Assembly: GCA_943704525.1 (NCBI GenBank)
Contig: CALSCQ010001156.1
Coordinates: 1 to 21,372 of the forward strand
Direction of reading: 5' to 3'
Length of the DNA: 21,372 nucleotides
DNA from: Pigoraptor vietnamica
Taxonomy: Eukaryota > Opisthokonta > Filasterea
A program made the position numbers and the translations under genes. Below are positions 1,153-20,261 of the stretch, in pieces (positions within the stretch are counted from its first letter, which is position 1; every line of letters begins with the position of its first letter). The notes below the pieces were generated by a model. That model made no database searches. It was not told the DNA's origin and worked only from the letters and a program-made list of their open reading frames with translations.

Positions 1153-2005
1153 TGCAATAGCTGAATATCGTTGCGTGTGTGCGTGGCGTGCACTGGCGGC
1201 TGCGTGCTTGGCGCGTGCGTATTTTTTTACACCGTGGGTCGTGCGTTAAATCAATTCACTTTTGCACTTGCGCGAGAGTCCCTTGCTAGAAAGCCCTGTC
1301 TCAGTCGGACTGAATCTGTCGATCTCGAGCCTTTGCAGTCTCCATTTATTTCAGGAAGAGAAGTGGCGATGACGAAAACACGTGTGTTGCGTCCTATTCT
1401 CAGCGACCCCAACACAGCATCGGTCCTTCAGTGTCTGCATGCGCTGGAGCGTCGTTCTGCTGCATGATGCACGCACCATTGTTGGCTTATGCACCCCTAT
1501 CTGGGGTGTCAAAAATTTTGTAATTGGCAAACGTATGGACGGCTTCGAGGCGACGGGTCCAGGACACAGGCAATTACACAGACACCAACGCACGCGTCTG
1601 TCGCTTCAGTCACTCTCTTGCCCTGACGCTTACACGCGTGTTTGCTCTTACAGTACAAACCAGCAGTCTCCGTGAGAAGGCATCTTTCGTGGCGCCGGGG
1701 ATTTTCTCATACGAGAACGAAGACCGCCGCGGCCGGGTCAATCCGCCACTCTCGACAATGGCTGTTGTGCGCCGAGAGGAGCAAGTCTAAATCCAAGTGC
1801 TGTTATTGTGCGCTTGGCCTTCCAACGAGCGCACCAGAGCCCCTCCTACCACGCGTCTTTGCGACCTTACACCAACTAGACCCCATCGACGATGTCGGTG
1901 ATCTCGGACCGGGTGACTGGCCCTGGACCCCACCGGAGACGCGCCGGGCCTGGAGCTTACCGGAGTGCTCGAAGTCTCTCATTGTGTATTAATACTTGGC
2001 TAAAA
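1153..2005. other. Intergenic, JTB 3' end to receptor kinase start
   Basis: About 850 bases of mixed composition with no convincing exon in either strand. It should hold the 3' UTR of the JTB-like gene and the promoter and 5' UTR of the receptor kinase. No canonical polyadenylation signal or TATA box stands out. An in-frame ATG at 1892 would lengthen the receptor by 38 residues but would push its signal peptide inward, so it was not used. Confidence 0.6.
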
Positions 2006-5000
2006 ATGCGCCGGCGAGCGAATGTGCGGCCTTCCGCATGCGCAAGTGGTGGGGTTTCTCTGCGTGCACTTGCCCTCCTGCTATTCTCCCTCTGCCTTTG
2101 TGTCGCTGCGGGTGCGTCGGCGGGCGGTTTCGTCGAATACGTCAGTGAATTTGCGGCGCATCCGTCCCAAACAACAACGACTATCTCGGCAATACGCGCG
2201 TGGGCGGAAAGCAGTGCTTCGTCGACAGGCGACATCGATCTCTCCGTCACAGCCGACGCGTTGCTCAGCGTTGACTTGCGCGGGGCCACTCTTAGCTGTG
2301 CCCGCGCGGTCACACTGCGGCTGGTGGGCGGGCACCTCGCGCTTTCCAACGCTGTCGTCGAGGGCTGTGCGACGGCGGACGGTTCGTCGGCTTCTGCGCC
2401 CCTCTTTGAACTGTTGTCCAGCGCCACGCTTACGCTCACAGACGTCACGTTTCGTAACCTTGCGGACGTGCGGGTCGCAAGCGCGGGCGGTTCGGCGTCC
2501 GTCTTCATGCGACACGTGACCCTGACGTCCGCAAGTTCGAGCGACAGCGTCGGCGGCGTGTTGCTGCGGTTGTCCGACGGCGCCTGTGCGTCACTCACGT
2601 CCGTTCGCGCGGAGGACGTCCACTGCGCTCTGTGCAGCGGCGGCCTCTTCTCCGTTTCCGGCAGCGCACGCCTCAACGTCACGGCGGACTCGGCGGTTGC
2701 GCAGGGGAGCGAAAATTCAGACGGAGGCGGCGGGTTGTGGGCTCGCAATGTAGCGACGCTGGACGGCGGGGTCGTCCTCGCCGCCGATCAAGCGCACGTG
2801 TCACTGGAGGCGTGCCGCGTGGCGGGTATCTCTGTGCTCGGCGACGGCGGCGTAATGCACGCGAGCGGATCTGCGACTGTGGAAGCGGTTGCCTGGCACG
2901 CGGACGACTTGAGCGCCGCGTGGGGCGCGTTTGCGCGCGTCATCGACGATGCCCACGTGACATGCGCGCTGTCGCATTTCGGGCCTGCCATCGGGACCAA
3001 CGCAATCGGCGCTATCACCGCGGTCCATGGCGGCGGACTCTTTGCTGCGAGCGGACACGCGACCATTCACGTGACCGACGCGACAGTGAACGGCGACGCG
3101 CTCGCTCTCACCGGTCCGGGGTCGTTTGCGCTGCTTCGCGACGGCGCGAGCATGGCGCTCTCGCGTGTCAGTGCGAGCAGTGTGCGCGCGTGCGAGGGAG
3201 CGGACGGCATCGAAGCGAACGTGTTCCAAATTGAAGATGGCGCGTCGCTTGACGCGAGGGACGTTAACATGACGGGCGCGGCGATGGACTCTGCGGCGAT
3301 GAACCTTGGCGTTCAGTGCTCCGTCATACGCGGAATGGGACGCGGACACGTGGCCCTGACCCGTGCGGTTATTCACGACCTTTGGACGGGTGCCTTCGCG
3401 CTGCTCACCAACGTTTCTTCTGCGTCGCTCGAGACGATCGACTTTGCGAACATCGACGGAAGCATAGTGACCGCCCGCGACAACGCGACGGTGAGCGCGA
3501 CGTTGGTGACTGCCACGAACGTCCAGGCGAAACACACGGCGTTCTACGTCGAGAGACATCCCCAGACAGGCTACCGACACCTCTGCGGATTCGCATTCGC
3601 CGGAAGTGCCGTCGGCGTTTTGCGCAGCCTGCGTGTTTCCTCGGTGGCGGTCAACACATTTTCCGCGGAGCTCTACGTGGCGTGCGCAATCGACTCGTCA
3701 AGCCTCTCCGTTGCCGACGCGCGGTTCGAATCCCCCCCGCTGCGCGTCATCCTCGTGCACGGCAGAAGCGCCCTCCACATAGAATCCGCGGAGTTGGTTG
3801 CGTGGAGCGTCGACCCTTTCCGACTCCTCAACGAAGACCGGCTGGCCTTCATCTACGCCGAAGACATAATTCCGAGCGATGAGCCGCCGAGACTCGACGC
3901 CCATGGCTTCCCAATCGTCGACCTTTCCGTCCACGTCCGCGTGTCCGTGTCGGAGTTTCGACAGGTCGGCGGGTACAAGTTTGCGTACATGCAGATGGGC
4001 TCGCTCGCCGTTCGCAACAGCTCGTTCGAGGACGCAATCGGGTTCGTCTTTCTCAAAGGATTGACGCAGCGCGCCGAATTCGTCGGAATCACGCTCCGCC
4101 GCGTGAAATACACGGGATCCCAAGGTCAACCGCTTGCGTTGGCGCCGGCTGTAGTCGACGTGAATGGGCCCTATGTCGACTGCGTGATCGAATCGTCCAC
4201 CGTCGAGGGAGTCGCCATCGCGGACGGCGTTTACGACATTGAGCGCGCGGGCTTCGTGTTCAGCGCGTTCTCGCGCATTAGAGAGGCGGGCGGTAACATA
4301 ACTGTGCGCCATGCGACCCTTCGCGACATTGTTGGCGGGATGGCGGGCGCAGTCTTCGGTACGAGCGCCCAGAATGCGGGCCACTTCGTTTTCGAACACA
4401 GCGAAGCGATCGGCGTCCACCTCGCGACGCCGCCATTTGACGAGCTCATTGCCCTATTGTCGCAGTTCCAGCAGTTGCCGCCGCCTTTGTACCTCGTGCC
4501 TGGCGGCGCGTTTGTGTCGGTTGTCGATATGGGGTTCACCGACCCCGGCGTGGCGGCCACGGTCGTCGTACGGCACTCGCGAATTGCCGACGTCTCGGCC
4601 AGAAACAGTGGAGCTGTCATCCTGACGTCGTCGCGTTATGCGAAGGTCGAAGTGCGCAACACGACCGTCTCGGGGGCAAGCGTGTCCAAGTGCGGCGGTT
4701 TTCTCAGAATGGACTCGGGAATCGCGACAATCGAAAACCTCGCGCTGGAGAATGCGTCCGCGGGAACAGCAGGCGGCGGCGCGTTCTGCCTCAGCGGCGA
4801 CGCGGAGCTATCGGTGAGTTCGGCCCGCCTGCGCAACGTGTTCACCAGAGGACCTGGCGGCGTCCTCGTGGCACGTGACATGGCGCGGGCGACCCTCACG
4901 AACGTCGTAGTGGACGACATCGAGGCCCAGAACGGCGGTGCCATATATCTCGGCGACACGTCCGCAGCGGACGTCTCCGACAGCAGCGCGGCGCAGATTC

Positions 5001-8000
5001 GCGTGGCAAACGCGGGTGGGTTTGCTTACGTCGATGCAAAGGCGCGCCTCGCGGCATCGAACGTCACCGTCGTGTCTGCGGCGGCTCAGAACGGCGGCGT
5101 GCTCGCCCTGTACAACGACATGGGGAACGATTGCTACGGCGCCTTCGCAGCATTCAACGTCACCGTCTCACAGGACGGGGGCTTCGCACTTGCCGAGGGT
5201 GGTGGCGTGCAGTGCTTTGTAAACGTTTCCCTGCTGAACGTGTCTGCGACGGCGCGTGGCGGCGGGTTTTACGTCACGAGAGGCGCATCCGTCATTGCGA
5301 AGGCCGTTGCGTTCGACGGCGTATCGGCGACGAATGGCGGCAGCTTCGCGGTCGACACGACGGCGACGCTTGTAATCGAACGCGGCACAATACGAAACGC
5401 ATGGGCGACCTCGGGCGGGGCGTTGTCGGTGACCGGCAGCGCGCACGTGACCGTCGCTCCGGGACCGGTGACGTTTGCGCAGTGTGAGGCCGAGTTCTCG
5501 GGCGGCGTTGCCCAGGTAGCCGTCCAAGGCGCGCTGTCAGTCGAGAACATTGTCGTGGACGGCGCGACGGCGACGAGCGGCGGAGCGTTCGGGATCGCGG
5601 ACGCGGCCACGGTGACAGTGACGTCGAGCGCGATTCGCTTCGCCCAAGCCGAAGACAGCGGGGCGGTGGCCCACCTTGCCCAGCGCGCGCGGCTGACGGT
5701 TACCGGCACCACCGCGTCCGGCTGCCACGCCGCGGAAAGCGGCGCAGTGTACGCGTTCGACTCTGCCATCGCGAACATCGACGGGGCGTCGTTCGAGAAT
5801 GTCAGCGCGGGTGCCATGGGCGGCGCGGTGTATGCGGGTGCCGAGGCAGCCGTGACAATCGCAAGCACCATCGTCAAGAACGCCACGGCCGGCGTGTCGG
5901 GAGGCGCGGTCGCCGTGTTTGGCGCGGCCCTCGTGCTACTATCGGACAGCACAATTGCCAACGCGCGCGCACAGAGTGGCGGGTGCCTGTTCGCGGACGG
6001 CGGCAACGCCGTAGTGGATGGAGGGTCTCTTGTCCGCTGCGTGGCAAGAGGGGCCAGTCTCGCGACGTCTGTGGGGGGCGTCGCGTACGTGTCGGCGGGC
6101 GCCACTCTGCACTTTGTGCGGCCGGTGAACATCTCGTCACCGTCGGCAGTATTGGGACCCGGCGTCTTCTCGCAGCTGCCGGTCGACGCGGCCACTCGGG
6201 CGAACTTTGCGCTTGCCGACGCCCTCGTGCTACCCGCCAACATCGCCGACCTGAACGGGTGGGAAGCCGGCGGCGCGTTCACCGGAGAACCGGAAAGCGT
6301 CGCCGTCACGAACACTGGGACGAATGCAGACGTGGCTGCGGCGCCCCTCTACACAACCAGCGGGGCGGCGCTTCCGTCGTTCACGGTGCGCGTCGTGGAC
6401 AAGTACGGCCAGTCCATATCCCTCGGGTCGCGCCGCCAGCTGTCGTTGCGCGTCTTCTCGGACGATGGCAGCGTCCTCGTCGGCGATGTCGAGCACAGTT
6501 TCGGAACAGAATCCAAGGTTCTCTTCACGTCTGTGCGCGTGCACGTCTCCAAGCCTGGCACGTACGCGCTTCGCATCCGATCGGCGAATCCGTTCGTGTA
6601 CGGCGATTACGACGAGCCGAGCGGTTTTCGCGCGAACATGGAGACGTATCGCATACCCGTGGTCGTTGGAGAGTGCGCCGCGGGACAGGTGATCGCCGCT
6701 GCCGACGGACTGCCGCAATGCGTGCAGCTGCCCGCGTCAGGGTCGGCCGACCACATCGTTGCGATTGTGGTACCAACGACGGTCGTGGGAGGGTGTGTCG
6801 TTGTTGCGGCGATCGTCGCCTTTATCCTCTGGCGGCGGTCCGTGCACCGGTTGAAGATGAGCCTCGCAACCCACCGCCAATTCCTTGAGAAGCACGTGGC
6901 GCAGAGCGACGCCCTCGGCAAGCTCGAACTACCCCGCGACGCGATCGAGCTGTTGGAGACGCTTGGCGAGGGCGAATTTGGGGTCGTCTGCCGCGCGAGG
7001 GTGGTCCTCGACGACGGCCGACCGCGGGTGTGTGCGGCCAAGATGATGAAGCCTGGGGCGTCGTTCGAGGCGCGCTGCGACTTCGTGTCGGAGGCAACCG
7101 TGATGCACGGGTTGAGCCATCATCCGCACGTCGTTTCGCTCGTCGGCGTCGCGCTGCAGGAGGAGCCCATGCTTATAATGCTCGAGTTTGTGCCCTACGG
7201 CAGCCTCCTCTCGTTCGTTCGTGAGATCCCGGCAGCACAGCGACACGCGGGGTCGGCGACCCTCCGCATGCTCGAGACGTTCTGCCGTCACATCGCGATG
7301 GGCATGGCCTATCTCGCGACTGTCGGCGTCGTGCACAGGTGAGTGAGGTGCCTGCGTAAGCGTTGCGGTCGCATGAGGCGGCGCATGTGACTGACATGCG
7401 CACAAACCACTCACGTCTCACAGAGACCTCGCTGCACGCAACTGCATGGTCGGTCAAGACGCGTTCGGAGAATACCTCGTCAAGGTCGCTGACTTTGGGC
7501 TGTCGGGCGTCATGGCGGAGAAGGACTACTTCCGAAAGGGGCGCGCGAAAGAGAAGCTTCCTGTCAAGTGGATATCCCCGGAGGCCATCGAGCAACGCAA
7601 GTTCACCGAGGCGTCGGGTTCGTCACGCGTTGCGTGTGCAGTGCAAGGAGTACGTGCGCGTGTTGTTGGCCGTGTGCGCCGCGCTGTTGTCGCAAGGTGA
7701 GCCAGAGGTTGCTCACGTGAGACAAGCTATCTGATGGTTTGGTTGCGTGCGACTGCAGACGTGTGGGCTTTCGGTGTGACGGCGTGGGAGACGCTGTCGT
7801 TTGGGGAAGTGCCGTACGGTGAGCGACGCCCTTCGTTCACCACATTTGCTATCGGTTCAGGTTCCGCGCCATGTTAGCGGACACACTTCGTGGACACACT
7901 AGCAACTCACTATGTGTTCGCACGCAGCGGGCCTCTCGGGTGCGGCCGTCCTCGAGTTCGTTCGAAGCGGCGGACGCCTCGACAAGCCGCCGAACTGCGC

Positions 8001-8466
8001 CACGGACTTCTTCGGCGCTGTGATCGAGCCGTGTTGGAATGTGGAACCGCGCGATCGCCCGTCTTTCTCTGAGATCGCCAATTCTACGATCCCCGACCTC
8101 CATTCGCTGCGCCTCGCAACCGCCGGTTTCAGGCCCGTCGCTGGCTCGCAGAATCCAACGAACGGCAGCTACGCGAATCTGTTCGCTCGACGGTCACCAG
8201 GTCCGCAGACACCTGGGGGTGCGCTCAAGAGCTCCAATCGTCTCCCTTCATTGGTGCGACTCGGTTTTCCCTCACCAAAGCCGCGACCGAGCAACAACGC
8301 GGAGGCGACACGACAGGACGGTGGCTACGACAACCTCGAAGTCGGCCCCAACATACCGCCGACCATCAGCCCATACGACGGCGTCGAGATGGCGAATGTC
8401 AGCGCTATCGACGTGGTAATCGACCACCCGTACGAAAATCCGCTGCCGGACGAGTCTGTTGTGTGA
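2006..8466 (+). CDS. Receptor tyrosine kinase with Pmp-like beta-helix ectodomain
   Basis: Exons 2006-7338, 7424-7617, 7759-7818, 7928-8466; 2041 residues. A signal peptide (about 1-39, ending in A-S-A) starts at the ATG chosen here. The ectodomain to about residue 1450 is built of G-G-A-type rungs repeating every 26-27 residues in its best region, resembling chlamydial Pmp repeats, so a right-handed beta-helix is inferred. An Ig/filamin-like stretch and a Cys pair follow, then one membrane span (about 1584-1607). The kinase (about 1647-1915) has a GEGEFG loop, Lys1679, HRDLAARN (Asp1779), DFG (1801-1803), activation-loop Tyr1813 and LPVKWISPEAI, all typical of active tyrosine kinases. Introns lie only in the kinase part; the junctions restore HRD, EASDVW and VPYAG. 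The 125-residue tail has YANL (Tyr1944), YDNL (1996), YDGV (2012) and YENP (2031). It should sit in the plasma membrane and phosphorylate tyrosine in cytoplasmic targets; the ligand is unknown. Confidence 0.93.
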
Positions 8467-9151: not shown

Positions 9152-12097
9152 ATGAGTGCAACAGCCGAATACCGCGCCCCGCCCGCGTACGTCGGGATGC
9201 CACTTCCGCAAGGGTGGGAAGAGGCGTGGGATGCCGAGCGCGGGAAAAAGTATTACATTGACCACAACACGTGCACGACGACATGGGTCGACCCGCGCGA
9301 CAAATACACAAAGCCGCTGACGTTTGCCGAGTGCGTCGGCGACGAGCTTCCGTATGGGTGGGAGCGGGACTTTGATCGCTCTGTCGGCGTGTTCTTCATC
9401 GACCACAACACGCGCACGACGCAGCTCGAGGACCCGCGCGGATCGTGGTACGCCGTGCAGCAGGAAATGCTGCGCGAGTTTCTCGAGACGACGAAGCGGT
9501 CGCTCGAGGCCAAGAAGGAGATGCTCGCCCTCAAGCAGCGGCGGCTCGGCATTGCGGAGGAGGAGGTTGCAATGCTCACGAAGCAGCTGGCACGCGGGCC
9601 GGGCCCTGCGCTGACGTCATTTGACCCGGAGAGCATCAAGCGGGACATTGCGGCGGCCAAGGCGCGCGTCACGCGGTTGCGCAACGAAATGGAGTCGTTG
9701 TCGGACGCGGTGGAATACGAGCAGGAGGGAATGCAGATCCTGCAGGGTGTCAACATGCGGATCGAGTCGAACCCGTCGTACCGCATCGAGGACGCGCGGG
9801 CGGCGCTTGCCGAGCTGCAGCGCATGCGGGATGCCCTCGAGCAGCACGAGCAGGAGAAGGAGGACCTTCGCGTGCTCTTGAATGAGCTCCGCAGCGAGAT
9901 TGCCGGGGGAGCGCACCCGCACGGCATGACAGTGAACGGAACGTTGACAATGCGTAAGCGCAAGTTCAAGACGATTGCGACGGTTCGGCTCGGGCCGAGC
10001 GCGTCGTCGAGCCTCATCGACGACCTTACGGAGGAAGAGTACGCGTTCAACGAGCTCGAGCGCATGCGCGTGAAGCGTCAGGTGCTCCGGTGGCTTGGCG
10101 ACAATGCGACGGAGATGCAGAAGGAGTTTGGGCCGCAACTCGCGCGCGTCCTGCAGGTGTACGCGGAAGACAGAGAGGTAAGCGTGGCAAACTGGCGCTG
10201 GTTCGTCTGTGCGGATAGGGCCAGCGTCAATAGATTATTCCCGCACTTGCGCTGAAGGCAATTGGCCAGAAATTGAACTGTGGTTTGACCGTTTTCTTTT
10301 GTTTTTCGCAGATGACGCCTGACCTCGACTTGCTCTCGGATATCGCGGCGACACTGTGGCCGGGCGTGGCGCAATTCGACGCGCTGCTGGAACTGCACGA
10401 GAAGGAGGAGGAGCAGTTGCGAGATCTCGCCCAGCTGGCGGTGGGCGACGGCGTGCCCGTGGACCCCATCCGGGGCATTTTTGAGAAGCGGTCGCTGGCG
10501 ACGGGGACAATCACGAAGCACCACCAGCAGCAGTTTGCGGCGATGATGCGCAAAGCGAGCGTCTCTCAGCTGCCCATCGTGCAGGCGCCAACGACGCCGC
10601 AGCAGGCCTCGCCCGCGTCTGCGTCCCAGTCGGTCGTGCAGCGCGCGCAGGCCTTCTCGCTCGAAATTATGCGCAAGCACGACCTCGAGCTGAAGAGGGC
10701 CATTGAGAACTGCCGCGAGACGGTGTCCAAGGACGTCCTCGCGGCCATTCTCAAGGATTGCCAGCGCTCCAAGGCAGAGCTCCGGAAGGGCATGCGCGAG
10801 ACCGCGCGCGACATGGTTCACGCAGCAGTCGCCTATCTGCCGCACCTGTTTGAGGTCGCGGCGGGCGAGAGCAGCACAGCGGCGTCGCGATCGAGCAGCA
10901 CGAAGAGCAACGCGAGTGCATCGGGGCGCGACGCCGAGCCGGAGTTGCCCGCGCCGCTGGACAGGCGAATGTCGTTCACCGGCACGCCCGCGCACCCGGA
11001 GTTTGCTGCGCTGGCACACCAACAGGAGAGGCGGCGGTCTGCCGTGGAGGGATCCGGCATCACGAGCGCGCAATTCTCGCCCGGGTCCGTCCGCTCGAGC
11101 GCAGGGTCGCCCAACTCCCGACGAGCGAAGCGGCTGCCTCCCCCGCCGCCGACGGACGCGCTGCCACCGTCGCCGATCATTCCGCCGCCGTCTGCGTTTG
11201 CGGAGTCGGACGAACTCGGCGACCTTCCCCCGCCGCCCCCCGAATTCCTTGCGGCCACGGCACCGGCGGGCGCCGGCGTCTTCGACCTGTCGGGTCTGCC
11301 GGAGTCGAGCCTGTCGACGTCGACTCCTATTCATTCGCGTGCGAAGATTGCGCCGCCGGCACCCCCTCCCGTCTCGACGCCGTTTTCGCCGCAGAGCACT
11401 TCGGGATCGTTGGCCAGCGCTTCGTCACAGAGCGTGGATGTGACGGTAGTGAGGGCACCGCCGGCACCCGTGCCGCCCGTGCAGCCCAAGCCACCGCAGC
11501 CGCCGGCACCTGCGGCAGCGCAGCCGCAGCCTAGCGCCCAGCAGCCGACTGGGGAACGCCGGACGTCGCAGCAGACGCGCCTGGACATTGAGCTTGAGCT
11601 TGCGATGATTCGGAGGGACTTTGAGAAGGCCAAGTCGGAGATGGCCCACCTCGAGAGCGTGCGCCAGAAGCTGCTCGCCGAGAAGGTGCGTGGGAAACTG
11701 TTCTCGGGAATCCTGACGTACCATTGCGTCTCATGGCGATGTGTGTGCGTGTGTGTGTGTGTGTGTGTGTGGTTGTGTCCGTTTCGATTACTCTCTTTCA
11801 GTCGTTGACGCCCATGCACTGCACTGTTAATTTGTGTCCCATTTTAAAGTCCCATCGCGTTCTGGTGCCGTTGCACGCGCGCAGGTCAAGCTGGAGCAAC
11901 TGCCCGAGTGGATGGAGGATCCTAACATTCAGGCCATGCTTGAGGTCGACCCGTCCAAGTGCCGCACCAAGAACACGCTCCGACGCACGTCCCTCGTGCG
12001 CGTCTCCGAGCTCCGCGAGAAACAGAAGGCGACGACGGACCAGCTGAGCTTCCGTGAGAAGATTGCGTTCTTCACAACCTACGGACTGGGCCCCTAG
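9152..12097 (+). CDS. WWC1 (KIBRA): KIBRA/WWC family protein, two WW domains, no C2 domain
   Basis: Exons 9152-10177, 10312-11685, 11885-12097, all phase 0; 870 residues; ATG in good context. WW1 spans residues 17-48 (Trp22, Trp45). WW2 spans 64-95 and has Leu92 where the second Trp should be, an atypical WW2 that human KIBRA also has (Ile). The inter-WW linker [16 protein letters not shown] is nearly the human one. Long coiled coils follow (about 100-260 and parts of 343-500), then Ser/Pro-rich stretches (about 590-640 and 720-757). The C-terminus keeps two KIBRA blocks: TRLDIELEL with its helix (763-800), matching the human aPKC-binding region, and [11 protein letters not shown] (854-864). 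The central C2 domain of animal KIBRA is not seen. In animals KIBRA acts with Merlin at the cell cortex to activate Hippo/Warts and binds aPKC. The same role here is inference. Confidence 0.92.
11740..11777 (+). repeat. (GT)n in KIBRA intron 2
   Basis: A run of GT with one GC interruption inside the last intron (11686-11884), in the sense orientation, about 110 bases before the 3' splice site. Confidence 0.95.
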
Positions 12098-12421: not shown

Positions 12422-13453
12422 TCATCGCGAGTCGTTTGGACCACGCATGTCGTTGGCCGCCTGCACCACGGGGGCGCACTGGCTGCACACGCGGCACTTG
12501 TCCCCTATTCCGAACTTCAGGATGGGTAGTGGCGGGGCGCTGCACGACTTGTTATCACATATCACGCGCCCGCAGTGCCGGCAGTGGTGCTGCGCGAAAC
12601 AGAGACAATCGCATTAGAGAGACCGCAATTACGAGAATAAGACAAAGGCACGTGGTGCAATTCCTGCGCACGGCTGTCAGTGAAAGACCACGCGCGCACA
12701 CGCCAGCCGCGACACGACGGAATTCTCACCCTTCGATAGAGCGCAGTGAACGAGTTGCCGCAGAGCTGGCAGGCCGGGGCCATCCCGTCCTCCACCCACG
12801 TCGGCGCCGACTCGATGTGCTCCAGTACAATGTTCCGCAGCGACGGCTCAACGTCCAACGGACTTTGCCGATACGCATTCAATACGTTCACAATTGCGCC
12901 TCCCTTCATGAGAAGAAGCAGCGCCTCTGTGTTGTGTCGGTGCGTGGCGAGGTGGAGGGCCGTCTGTTCGAGATGAACAATTAATGCCCCGCCCCACCAA
13001 ATACCAACTGACTTCGCTGGACAAATCATCCGCGCTCTTCCATTTCAGCGCCCAAATACGACGAACAGTAGGACACACACGCAACCACAACATTAGCCAG
13101 ACAACACACACGGATTTGCACACCTGGCCCATGTCGTCCTGCACGTTCACAAGCGCGGGCTTCAGATCGACAAGAAATCGCACCATTTCGGTGTGCGTAA
13201 TCGCAGGTCCCGTCACCGCAGCGTGAAGCACCGTTCGGCCGGCGCAGTCCCGCGTCATCACGTCAAAGCCGCCGTCAATGTCAGACCGCAGACCTGCCAA
13301 ATCGCCCACGAGAACGCCTCGCCACACGTCAATCACAGGCCGTCGCGCCGCCAACTGCGCATCTCCGCGAGATCGCGCAGAGTCGCCCCTTTCCTTCCCC
13401 ACGGACTCCAAGGGCGGACTTCCTCCGCTGGCGCTTGGAGGCCGCGCTGACAT
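12422..13453 (-). CDS. Ankyrin-repeat protein with C-terminal FYVE zinc finger
   Basis: Minus-strand exons 13124-13453, 12730-12963, 12422-12589, phase 0 junctions; 243 residues. Two or more ankyrin repeats lie at about 40-145 (GRTVLHAAV and GQTALHLAT are the signature turns; the second is rebuilt exactly at the first splice junction). A FYVE finger follows at about 166-230: W166-V-E-D (the WxxD element), C175-x-x-C178, RRHHCRHCG at 187-195 (rebuilt at the second junction), CDNKSC, and the RVC motif with its final C-x-x-C. All hallmark PI3P-binding elements and zinc ligands appear present, so recruitment to early endosomes or other PI3P membranes is expected. The architecture is a compact form of larger ankyrin-FYVE proteins such as rabankyrin (ANKFY1); orthology is not claimed. 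The start ATG has A-rich context. It is divergent from the kinase gene to the right. Confidence 0.88.
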
Positions 13454-13792
13454 TTTAGCGGCACCGATTTGCGCGGACAGCGACGATGGGCCTTTCGACC
13501 CGTTCGACGATCAACACATCTGCTGTCCTTCACACACGGCGTCGCAAGACTGTGGAGTAGTGTGCCGTTGCAGCGCAGCGCTCTTTCTCCCACTGCTCTT
13601 TTGCCGCGCGCGGATATCACAACAACCTGTGTGAGCACTTCGCGAGGGAGTTCACACCCCGGATGAAATAAGGGCGTCAGAATACATGTTCTATGAAAAT
13701 GTGAGAATTGCCACCCCGTATCTTCATGACACGAAGGCGAAAACATGAGCCCCACTGCAAATGTAGTACCACGGGAAGGTTGGAAGTGTCAG

Positions 13793-14276: not shown

Positions 14277-15244
14277 ATGTTCCTCAAGAAGAGCAAAGGT
14301 GGATTTCGTCGCGATTCGCTCAAACCTGCTTGAAATCGTTTGGCCACTGCGCACAAGGGCTGCACCCTTTTTGGGGATTGGTTGGGCGCGACCGTCGTGT
14401 TTGCCCTTTATTTATGCGGTGTTTTCGCTCTGTTTTCGTGCAGACAAGGACAAGTCCGAGAAGTCATCGTCCAAGACAGACCTCCGCTCTTCGAGTGGGT
14501 GTGGCCACAACTGGCCGCTTTGTGTGTGCGAGCGTCGTCGGGCTGTGGGCCATGCCTGCGTGCGCTCTATTGTATGGTGTTCTCGGAGACACTTTGTGCG
14601 GTGCTTTCTCATTCGCAGAGTTGCGCGTTGCAATTGTGGATGCGTTGCTGATGGTATTTCGCTGCGATTGGCAGAGGATGTCGAAGGCAAGATGGCAAAG
14701 ATGCGGATCTCGGGAGACCGCTACGTGAGTGAAGTTGTGGCGCCCGTTCGCAATCGATATTGCGCGTATAGATGTATATTTGCTTATGCATACTCTCTCA
14801 AATCTGCAGATCCTCGGGGACGGTGCGCCGCTGGACGGTGGCGGCAAGCTGTTCGTGCGCATCGTGGAAGGCCGCGAGATTTATTCCAAGAAGAACGGCG
14901 ACGCCGTGAAGCCGTTTTGCATGGTCGAATTCGAACACAATCAGATTCTGACGCCGTCGTCCGAGGGCCCGAAGCCCAAGTGGAACCACGAGTTTCACTT
15001 GTGAGTTTGAGCGTCCCACTTGTTCGCGTCAGATGAGGGTTTCTGCATGTAGTGGTAGTTGAGTGTCTCTTACGCACAATCTGATGGCGGCGGCGTCCCT
15101 TTGCAATTTGTCGCAGCGACGTGACCGAGCCAGATGGCGAGCTGCAGTTTATTGTGTACGACCGGGCGGCGCTCAAGGGCGGCAACGACTGCATTGGGAC
15201 CGTGTCAATTGTGCCATCGTATGAGGAGGGGGTGAGTATCGGTG

Positions 15245-15284
<40 letters not shown>

Positions 15285-16646
15285 GTGTTTGTGTGTGTGT
15301 GTGTGTGTGCCTGCCTGTGTGCTTGTGTGTGTTGTGTATTTTGTGTGGATTGTGGCGAAAGAAACGACGTCGCTTACGCATATGTGTGCTATTGTAGCGC
15401 CTGTACGACGACTGGTTCGATCTCCGGTTGCGGGAGGGTGCGGAGAAGTCGGACGCCAAGCTGCACATTCAAATATCGTTCAAGAAGCAGGATGTGGGTG
15501 TCGTGTCCCTGGCCCGGAATGACTTAGTCGTGTAATTGTGCCGCGGCTAAAAGCTTTCAATTTTCGTCTTTGCCTGAGCAGTCGAAGGGCCTCACGATCA
15601 ACGACTTTGAGCTTCTCAAGGTCATCGGCAAGGGCAGCTTCGGAAAGGTGCGGCTGTGTTTTCAGATGCCTCGAGTTGTCTGGGTGCTGCTGCAATTCAG
15701 CAGTCCCTGCTCACGCATTAAACCCACGTGACGTTTTGCAGGTCATGCAAGTCCGGAAGAAGGACACGAAGCGCATCTACGCGATGAAGATTCTCACCAA
15801 GAGCCACCTCGTGGAGAGGGACGAGGTCGCACACACGCGCTCCGAGCGCAAAATTCTCGCGAAGAACACGAACCCCTTCCTCGTCGGCCTCAAGTTTTCG
15901 TTCCAGACGAAGGAGAAGATCTACCTCGTGCTCGACTACATCAACGGCGGCGAGCTTTTCTTCCACCTTCAGAACGAGGGCAAGTTCCCGGAGCCCCGCG
16001 CCAAGTTTTACGCCGCGCAGCTCGTGCTTGCGATTGAGGACCTACACAGGATGAGCATCATCTACCGGTGCGTTTGTCTCTCTGCGTCTGTTGTGAATGC
16101 ACACATAGGCTGTGTGTTGCGGGGGTGCTAACGGGGCCGGCTGTTTGCGCATTTGCAGCGATCTCAAGCCCGAGAACATTCTCGTCGACTACAGCGGCTA
16201 CATTGCGCTCACTGATTTTGGCCTCTGCAAGGAGGACGTTCAGTACAACGAGACGACCAACACATTCTGCGGCACGCCCGAGGTACGTTTAACCGGGGCG
16301 GATTTACAATTGGCATTCCAACGCACACGAATTTGTGCGAATGGCGGAGGGAAATCGCCTAATGACGTGTCTCCCCGATTCTACTTGCAGTACATGGCGC
16401 CGGAAGTGTTGCAGCAGAAGGGTTACGGCCCGCCGGTCGACTGGTGGACGCTCGGCATTCTCCTCTATGAAATGCTCACGGGCCTCCCGCCGTTTTACGA
16501 CGAGAACACGAACCAGATGTACCACAAGATTTTGTTTGGCGACCTCACGTTCACGGACGAGGTGTCGTCCAAGGCTCGCTCTCTCATCACTGGGGTGGGT
16601 AGCTGCCCATAGCGTGTCCGTTTTGCCTACGCAGTAGCACGCACGC

Positions 16647-16731
<85 letters not shown>

Positions 16732-17205
16732 GCAAAACTCTGCGTAAACCCATTCGATACTGGAACGATGGCCTGATGAATGTGTGCGGTGGTCGTGTGC
16801 AGCTGCTCCAGCGCGATCCGAAGAAGCGCCTCGGCAGCGGACGGACGGACGCCGAGGACGTCAAGAAGCACCCATTCTTTGCCGACATTGACTGGGATGA
16901 ACTGCTCAAGAAGAAGATCAAGCCGCCGTGGAAGCCGCAGCTGGTGCGATGCGCGTTTTCGTCGCTTGTTCTCCTTAGACGGGCATTCCTTGTCCAGTGC
17001 TCTTACCGGCTATTGGCCTTCTTCTCACCTCGGTCACGATTGCTCGTTGCAGGATTCGAAGCTCGACACGAGCAACTTTGACCCCGAATTCACCGAGATG
17101 ACACCGAAGGACTCGATGGTGCAGAGCTCGCATCTCAGCAAGACGGTGCAGGATCAGTTCAAGGGCTTCACGTACGTCGACGACTCGGAACTCTCGCGCG
17201 ATTGA
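14277..17205 (+). CDS. YPK/SGK: C2-domain AGC kinase, YPK/Gad8-SGK type
   Basis: Twelve exons: 14277-14298, 14444-14494, 14675-14724, 14810-15000, 15117-15231, 15398-15493, 15582-15647, 15742-16067, 16159-16282, 16391-16594, 16803-16943, 17053-17205; total 512 residues with every phase consistent. A Lys/Ser-rich N-terminus (starting MFLKKSK) leads into a C2-like domain at about 42-170. The kinase starts near 183 with INDFELLKVIGKGSFGKV, which closely matches yeast Ypk1. Key residues: Lys213, RDLKPEN (Asp307), DFG at 325-327, T-loop TFCGTPE (Thr341), turn-motif TP (Thr479), hydrophobic motif F498-x-x-F-T-Y (Thr502). The kinase looks active and should be phosphorylated by PDK1 at Thr341 and by TORC2 at the tail, as in YPK/Gad8/SGK. 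An N-terminal C2 rather than a PH domain separates it from animal AKT and fits fungal Ypk/Gad8. Introns 5 and 10 carry large GT and CA repeats. Confidence 0.94.
15248..15336 (+). repeat. (GT)n in C2-kinase intron 5
   Basis: A GT-rich microsatellite directly after the donor of the intron at 15232-15397. Its start matches the repeat that begins at base 68 except for one repeat unit. Confidence 0.95.
16639..16729 (+). repeat. (CA)n in C2-kinase intron 10
   Basis: About 90 bases of nearly perfect CA inside the intron at 16595-16802. On this strand it is CA, whereas the repeat in intron 5 of the same gene is GT, so the two could pair within the pre-mRNA. Confidence 0.96.
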
Positions 17206-18652: not shown

Positions 18653-19862
18653 ATGTGTGCTGACGTCGACATGGCGAAGCTCAAGGCTTACGTTCAGGTT
18701 ACGAAGGACTCTGGTGAGTGTCGCGGTCGCGCTCTTCATTAGCCCACGGCTTGCACTGACCCCATCTTCCTGCCATTAGGCCCCGGCCCCGCCTGCTATG
18801 GCCTCCCTTCGACGATTGGCAGCCCCGGCAAGCAGTCGGTGGACGTGTCTATGAAGTACAGCCCGGCGTACACGTTCGGCATGCGCCTGGATATGGGCGG
18901 TGCTGTCGGTGGGTTGCGTGCCTGTGGCTGTGAGTTGGCGCTTGGCGATGTGTGGTGATGTCCAACTTGACCATTCGCTTTTTTCGCGCACAGGCCAGAA
19001 GTCCGTGAGCCCTGGCCCCGCGGCCGTGCTGCCCATGGTCGACCGCAACGGCAACAAGGGCGGCCAGCCTGCGTACTCTATCCAGACACGCAAGATTAGC
19101 TTTGTGACGAAGAGTGGGTGCTTCGGCCAAGCAATTGGGCACATGTGCATCCGCTTTCAAAAAGTTCGCTCTTCATATATCTTTGCGCGCATTCCTGACG
19201 AGTGCGCTCCTTGTTGTGCAGACGCGACGTTCGTGCCCGGCCCCGGCGCATACTGCCCCGAGAAGTCGCTCATTCCCAAGGAGCGCCACGCCCCCGCGTA
19301 TTCTTTCGGCGCGCGCCTCAACGACTCGAAGAGTGAGTGTCAGAGCCGTTTGCTTACAAATCACGCCGGCATCATCTCACGCACGCACCCCTCTGTTCTC
19401 CCGCAGTGACGGACGGCCCTAGCCCGAACACGTTCAACCTCCCCAGCCTGATTGGGCCCAAGACGTTTACGTCGCGGATTCGCTCTGCCCCGGCGTTCTC
19501 GATGGGCTCGCGCCACAAGCCGCTGATTAGCCTCACGACGCCCGCGCCGGGTGCGTACCGGGACGTCGACCCCAACACGTTCAAGAAGAAGGCGCCGACC
19601 ATTTCGCTGTCGCCGCGCTACAAGGCCGAGCGTGGTGAGTTGGCTTTTGAAGTTGCCCCACGGCATTACACAATTTCGCAAATTTCCTTCATATACTTAC
19701 TTGACGTGTGTGTGTGTGTGTGTCCGCGCAGACTTCAACGCCGTGCCTGGGCCTGGCGCGTACAACCCCGACTTTGCTGCGACGTTCGCGAAGGCGCCGC
19801 GGTCGTCGCTCGGCATCCGCCACTCCGAGTACATGATCAACTTTGTCGACGAAGAGTTCTAA
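18653..19862 (+). CDS. ODF3 (CIMAP1): SHIPPO/ODF3 (CIMAP1)-type ciliary microtubule protein
   Basis: Six exons: 18653-18713, 18780-18908, 18994-19113, 19222-19332, 19407-19634, 19732-19862; 259 residues. The ATG at 18671 has better context (GACATGG) and would give 253, close to the 254 of human ODF3; the first ATG is used here. The protein is made of sperm-tail PG-rich (SHIPPO) repeats: GPGPACYG, SPGPAAV, VPGPGAYCP, GPSPNTF, APGAYRD, VPGPGAYNP, each followed by a PAYSF/PAFSM-like segment. The end GIRHSEYM resembles the human ODF3 end GIKHSDYM recalled from memory. Members bind in or on axonemal microtubules and are found in motile cilia and sperm flagella, so the organism very likely builds a flagellum. 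All five introns are phase 1 and fall just before PG motifs. Confidence 0.93.
19706..19722 (+). repeat. Short (GT)n next to a 3' splice site
   Basis: Eight GT units ending nine bases before the exon at 19732 in the last intron of the ODF3-like gene. It takes the place of a normal polypyrimidine tract. Confidence 0.9.
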
Positions 19863-20261
19863 AGGCACCCGGACACCGTCGCCATGCCCCGCGTGCGCCC
19901 GTCTTCTCGCGTCGCCTTGTTTTTTTTGTGCTTCTTTTTCTCTCGCTCTTGTATCGAACATATTCCAGCGTAAGAAACCCAACGGCCGCGTGCAGCTGCG
20001 CACAACACCCCTGGCGAATGTCTGGCGCGCGAGTGCGACGCCGATGTCTCCTGGCTGGTGCTTCCGCAATGCCGTGCCTCTGCGTGCGTGCAACAGCGCT
20101 TTCATCTCCTTTCTTCTTAGAAAACACAAAACACACATTCACCGTCGTTTCCCGCGCCGTGCGTTCGCGATTGATTAAATCGATTGAAAACCACCGCCTC
20201 TACGCCGTCAGCGCATGCACAAATTCGCTGGCCCAATAGAGACGTCGCCATCGCGTTTACT
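19863..20261. other. Convergent 3' region, ODF3-like and MetRS genes
   Basis: A 399-base gap between facing stop codons. It holds a T-run near 19919 and pyrimidine-rich sequence, and should contain both 3' UTRs. No gene, repeat or canonical AATAAA was seen. Confidence 0.65.

Follow-up and report, generated by a model that had tools for sequence, protein, structure and literature searches.

The window is the complete 21,372-base contig (C465) of a 32.5-Mb draft genome with 1395 contigs. Several genes surround the KIBRA-like gene that is described here. A tyrosine kinase gene, receptor-type by eye, occupies positions 1880–8466. Well over 1000 residues of beta-helix-like repeats precede the kinase in one exon, and Pfam detects the kinase only. 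Just downstream of the KIBRA-like gene, and tail to tail with it, an ankyrin-repeat gene lies on the minus strand (12565–13510; Ank below the Pfam cut-off); it ends in a Cys-rich stretch that resembles a zinc finger. The AGC kinase at 15523–17202 is Akt/SGK-like by eye and carries a C-terminal Pkinase_C extension. Just upstream of it, an open frame (15085–15519) is C2-like by eye; Pfam finds no C2 in this frame. Frames with sperm-tail PG-rich (SHIPPO) repeats are located at 18855–20236 and suggest that the organism has a flagellum.

The KIBRA-like gene (9152–12097) consists of three exons and encodes 870 amino acids, with the stop codon at 12095–12097. Its features are as follows.

9152–10177, plus strand: exon 1 (aa 1–342), WW pair and N-terminal helices; GT donor at 10178
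9161–9190, plus strand: N-terminal PY pair (aa 4–13) with two-residue spacing
9203–9295, plus strand: WW1 (aa 18–48)
9347–9436, plus strand: WW2 (aa 66–95), second Trp replaced by Leu92
9434–9595, plus strand: long predicted helix following WW2 (aa 95–148), matching the αC extension of KIBRA
9626–9907, plus strand: further predicted N-terminal helices (aa 159–206 and 212–252), probable coiled coil
10178–10311, plus strand: intron 1, 134 bp, GT-AG, phase 0
10312–11685, plus strand: exon 2 (aa 343–800), the entire middle, with no C2 and no predicted strand
10876–11580, plus strand: Pro/Ser/Ala-rich stretch (aa 531–765), mostly low confidence, at the position of the C2 and the aPKC site in animals
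11551–11682, plus strand: predicted C-terminal helix (aa 756–799), with LDIELEL at 11581–11601
11686–11884, plus strand: intron 2, 199 bp, GT-AG, phase 0, containing a TG repeat
11885–12097, plus strand: exon 3 (aa 801–870 and stop), with LPEW at 11900–11911 and SFREKIAFF at 12047–12073

Searched against its own genome, the gene gave ten matches among those listed (20 candidates scored), namely its own three exons and seven WW stretches elsewhere. It is intact and, among the matches listed, probably single-copy. The GC3 value is 0.73 in the first 60-codon bin and 0.75–0.90 in the rest (15 bins), and the total GC of the introns is 0.50–0.53. By this composition the Pro/Ser-rich middle looks coding, as does the rest of the gene.

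Pfam assigns two WW domains to the protein (E 6.9e-21). The best PDB match is human KIBRA, which aligns with residues 12–141 at E 2.5e-46 and 162 bits; the next match is a NEDD4-type ligase with 76 bits. The alignment takes in WW1, the inter-WW linker, WW2 and some 40 residues of the following helix; 70 of the 129 aligned residues are identical (54%). The protein has the combination that marks KIBRA/WWC proteins, namely two N-terminal WW domains, the KIBRA linker and a helix after WW2. Both the conserved WW pair and the degenerate second WW domain, which the initial annotation had recognized in the letters, are borne out by these matches. Most WW domains have a second Trp at the position of Leu92, and human KIBRA has an Ile there. 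The first 142 residues have no relative in viral or prokaryotic contig collections, which is uninformative on eukaryotes.

Ligand binding by human KIBRA is weakened by I35D, F47A, L57D or W88A and by loss of the helix after WW2 (accessible text of PMC6744271). The equivalent residues are V46, F58, Y68 and W99, two of which (F58 and W99) are identical; Y68 is a Tyr as in the ELPYGW motif of MAGI2. Because of the KIBRA alignment, the residues at the ligand-binding positions and Leu92 in WW2, we infer that the WW pair forms a rigid unit of the KIBRA type that would prefer two PY motifs placed two residues apart.

An AlphaFold2 model of exon 1 alone, calculated from the single sequence, contains six WW strands (mean pLDDT 60.4). 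Its helices comprise residues 95–148, 159–206 and 212–252 (block-mean pLDDT 33–90) and, with breaks, residues 285–339. Foldseek places KIBRA on top of 13 matches with E ≤0.001. The TM-scores normalized by query length are low (0.09–0.15); thus, it is the sequence match that carries weight for the identification as KIBRA.

In the middle, Pro (47), Ser (37) and Ala (34) make up 50% of the 235 residues from 531 to 765, and neither Tyr nor Trp occurs there, in agreement with the Ser/Pro-rich character noted earlier. At E ≤10, Pfam finds no C2, whether the whole protein or exon 2 is searched; as a positive control, the isolated human KIBRA C2 is detected at 5e-7 in the same library. phmmer was run with its filters off on the spliced protein and on 340 stretches from the six-frame translation of the contig. 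Here, the human KIBRA C2 scores E 20 with the spliced protein, E 19 with the frame containing exon 2, and at best E 0.64 elsewhere on the contig, for an upstream stretch (5856–6011). The synaptotagmin C2 matches neither the spliced protein nor the exon 2 frame at E ≤1000. C2 domains are common in the genome (at least 33 matches), and none of those listed is on the contig of the KIBRA-like gene. The human KIBRA C2 found nothing when compared with the whole genome; this query had no positive control, missed the C2 genes that the domain matches show and weighs little.

In the exon 2 model (AlphaFold2 without homologues, mean pLDDT 51.7) not a single residue is assigned to a strand. Helices are predicted up to about residue 532, followed by a short one at 574–584 and a confident one at 756–799 (pLDDT 81–92 in the last four blocks). 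The model is otherwise mostly of low confidence. Low pLDDT without homologues would be expected for disorder, and likewise for a poorly predicted region. Since residues 531–765 are half Pro, Ser and Ala and lack both Tyr and Trp, they are very unlikely to adopt a C2 fold. The introns of 134 and 199 bp are too short for a C2 exon, since the solved human C2 has about 128 residues. Pfam, phmmer and the exon 2 model agree with the lack of C2 proposed in the initial annotation, and neither a C2 in the middle nor a hidden exon encoding it was found.

The C-terminal blocks LDIELEL (residues 766–772) and SFREKIAFF (855–863) are present as described before. The human tail used for comparison is a provisional sequence, except for the aPKC-docking peptide, which is printed in a paper. 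Aligned with it, the tail of the protein scores 98. Shuffled versions of this tail average 36 (sd 6.6) and, in 2000 trials, score no higher than 79. LDIELEL, LPEW and SFREKIAFF follow each other in what we take to be the order in human KIBRA. Compared with the PDB at E ≤10, the tail yields three unrelated matches and no KIBRA chain.

The human aPKC-docking peptide is FVRNSLERRSVRMKRPS, as given in the accessible part of PMC12997682. Nowhere in the 870 residues is there a match to the pattern F-x-R-x4-[RK]-x-[ST]-x-[RK], even when other hydrophobic residues are allowed for Phe. Its closing portion, [RK]-x-[ST]-x-[RK], is found at residues 504 and 829 (the latter KNTLR, inside the tail), so that a weaker or relocated contact with aPKC is conceivable. 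In animals, the docking site is followed by four conserved helices that are placed by models in or between coiled coils, and the first of them is modelled as pairing with an N-terminal helix (PMC13282866, available text). By its position, LDIELEL corresponds to this first helix after the site and is therefore not the docking site itself. The block had been read earlier as being of the aPKC type, an assignment that has to be given up. Nor do the data support the idea that the C-terminus already contacted aPKC before animals arose, as the animal docking motif is absent, though an aPKC-type kinase is encoded. By eye, the protein ends with TYGLGP and has no PDZ-binding tail; every mammalian WWC protein carries a PDZ ligand (PMC13339755, in the part accessible).

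The likeness to KIBRA/WWC1–3 includes the WW tandem with its linker and following helix, an aliphatic residue at the second Trp position of WW2, the predicted N-terminal helices and, by the provisional human tail sequence, the C-terminal LDxELxL, LPxW and SFREKxAFF blocks. Human KIBRA is longer (about 1113 residues compared with 870 here) and has an ADDV-type tail. In contrast to KIBRA/WWC1–3, the KIBRA-like protein has no C2, no F-x-R-x4-R-x-S-x-R aPKC site and no tail of the ADDV type. If WWC proteins are defined strictly by WW plus C2, this one does not fully belong to them. Judged by its sequence, it is a homologue of KIBRA with a variant architecture and very probably works like KIBRA through the WW pair. 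A tightly coupled WW pair is also found in MAGI2 and MAGI3 (PMC6744271, accessible text), and the ELPYGW before WW2 is common to MAGI2. However, MAGI2 scores only 71 bits compared with 162 for KIBRA, and the KIBRA-like protein has no Pfam domain above cut-off other than WW. A study of 24 metazoans (PMC3620549) offers, in its accessible part, context for animal Kibra only. No report of a C2-less KIBRA was found in the accessible open-access literature, which is a weak indication.

The pathway setting for KIBRA appears largely to exist in this genome, although Merlin proper, Salvador and Mats are not among the parts identified. TEA domains are present in two genes. One SARAH match was found, and the kinase exons of the same gene are MST/Hippo kinase by eye. 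The Warts-type kinase (contig C422) shares 78% and 53% identity with a provisional human LATS1 sequence over two exons. The stretch before this kinase resembles, by eye, the primer arm of Capsaspora Warts. No paired PY motif is present in a 1521-base part of the Warts region. A candidate gene on C1268, which we take to be Yorkie-like from its general features, scores 116 bits in its WW with NEDD4-type ligases and 81 bits with YAP (whole sequence).

FERM_C was found in one gene of the genome (C824, L024), which by its sequence is a member of the ERM/Merlin family. Its identification as Merlin was dropped, as the stretch compared scores 95 bits with ezrin/moesin/radixin and 71 bits with Merlin. 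This single gene may stand for both ERM and Merlin. Its tail, KYKTLRMIKKGTAKERIAFFENL, is ERM/Merlin-like by eye. The absence of aPKC from the genome was also considered and dropped. A kinase on C74 (L054, G000:C74:25500–29627) has protein kinase C iota as its best PDB match in both exons compared (79 vs 64 bits in one, 261 vs 222 bits in the other). The contig ends upstream of this aPKC-type kinase, and a PB1 domain may or may not lie beyond its end. The genome has three PB1 matches, none of which was seen joined to a kinase. Animal aPKC has a Glu in the hydrophobic motif, which occurs in none of 11 AGC-kinase tails. The hydrophobic motif of the C74 kinase is GFSCLNP, with Ser at the position of this Glu, and its upstream C1 stretch resembles the diacylglycerol-binding type by eye. 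Perhaps this kinase shows a mix of PKC features that predates the split into subfamilies. Probably, aPKC is present in the genome, yet the KIBRA-like protein lacks the docking motif that is known to hold it. The genome check proposed in the initial annotation thus turned up a Hippo-type kinase, Warts and an aPKC-type kinase; in the case of Merlin it led to the FERM_C gene that is nearer to ERM. The genome is not that of Capsaspora owczarzaki. Primer arms published for its Hippo, Warts and Yorkie genes have no 16-mer in common with the loci compared, the Warts arm has none in the Warts stretch of this genome either, and the Hippo proteins of the two differ at the Hippo arm. The tyrosine kinase gene on the contig, the Hippo set and the sperm-tail repeats would suit a single-celled relative of animals that has, or once had, a flagellum. 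A search for Wnt gave no hit here, nor in any of the controls, and is uninformative as to whether the organism is an animal.

The protein is probably a PY-binding scaffold of the KIBRA type in which the two ends belong to one core and the C2, the aPKC site and the PDZ tail are separable additions. The WW pair would behave as a single rigid clamp for partners, Warts for example, that present two PY motifs close together. The C-terminal helices would fold back onto the N-terminal coils, so that both ends form one conserved core, and the middle would be a loop with a content that varies between lineages. This arrangement is based on published models of animal KIBRA and on the helices from exons 1 and 2, which were folded separately. 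It is the simplest account of the conservation of the two ends but not of the middle. Without a C2, the protein might reach the cell cortex via partners (an ERM/Merlin-type protein or Pro-rich ligands) instead of by its own lipid binding, and there it could help to assemble the Hippo-Warts cassette.

The interaction partners of fly Kibra include Salvador, Merlin, Warts and, by way of Salvador, Hippo, according to the accessible text of PMC7895526. The same text reports that losing both WW domains weakens Warts binding and that WW1 is required for pathway activation (PMC7895526). Removal of the C-terminal third leads to smaller wings, which was read as higher activity (PMC7895526). Transformants with a ubiquitin-promoter transgene lacking the C2-like domain were sterile and could not be maintained (PMC7895526, same part), so dropping the C2 may not be neutral. 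By analogy, it is plausible that a C2-less KIBRA scaffolds Warts through its WW pair, although the results in flies are no evidence that the C2 can be dispensed with.

As to the origin of this form, the chances are about even that the C2 was lost secondarily. The ancestor shared with animals would then have possessed a C2, and this lineage would have exchanged the C2, the aPKC site and the PDZ tail for a Pro/Ser linker and a plain end. Capsaspora owczarzaki, a unicellular relative of animals, has been reported to encode Kibra (PMC10959527, accessible part). The survey that called the Capsaspora pathway intact used WW plus C2 as the test for Kibra, but its accessible text does not say which species' Kibra passed (PMC7035326). 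The Capsaspora Kibra and this criterion hint at a C2 that existed before animals, and we therefore lean towards loss over late gain. Loss is also consistent with the abundance of C2 domains in the same genome and with the fact that the three missing features, all located in the loop or tail, are gone together.

It seems rather unlikely that the architecture is ancestral, with a first KIBRA that was a WW and coiled-coil scaffold and with C2, aPKC docking and PDZ tail gained towards animals. The conserved ends are complete without a C2, and the three features are missing at loop and tail sites where insertion would be easy. However, these points come from a single genome with no outgroup. Quite doubtful is a founding KIBRA that had no C2, in which the N- and C-terminal helices built a single core about a WW pair that grips PY motifs, and to which the animal lineage later added lipid binding, aPKC docking and PDZ binding by insertion. 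Within this reading, the protein of the present organism may also contain a ligand for its own WW domains. The N-terminal PY pair, with a two-residue spacing that suits KIBRA tandems, could then give rise to dimers or to self-inhibition that is relieved by partners.

A C2 exon that is missing through misassembly or a faulty gene model is very improbable: the assembly is a draft and the gene model was made without transcripts, but the middle is one open exon of 1374 bp with coding composition throughout, the introns are short, and the gene finds no second copy in the genome among the matches listed. It is extremely unlikely that the protein belongs to another kind with a WW tandem and is like KIBRA at its ends only by coincidence. 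The MAGI2 tandem matches too (71 bits), but KIBRA aligns with 162 bits over WW1, linker, WW2 and about 40 helix residues and has a collinear tail (by the provisional human sequence).

A survey that requires a C2 (such as the one in PMC7035326, as far as its accessible text describes it) would miss this KIBRA-like gene, so the occurrence of upstream Hippo regulators beyond animals may be underestimated. The C2-less gene separates a conserved scaffold core from parts that can be absent. A natural KIBRA without C2 also provides a means to test the function of this domain.

The N-terminal PY pair is translated only if Met1 (9152) and not Met16 is the start. Its spacing is exactly two residues, as preferred by the WW tandem of human KIBRA, and we know of no N-terminal PY pair in human KIBRA. 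PY pairs with two-residue spacing, a pattern chosen post hoc, occur at only two places in 241,684 bases in six frames (the window and other loci, partly overlapping). The second place is an open frame of 88 residues on the minus strand of the same contig (17450–17716), which is rich in Pro and Met (MSYYAAPPVYMPPPVYMPPPP...), contains PPVY-MP-PPVY and has no Pfam match. This small protein is a candidate ligand for the WW pair of the KIBRA-like protein.
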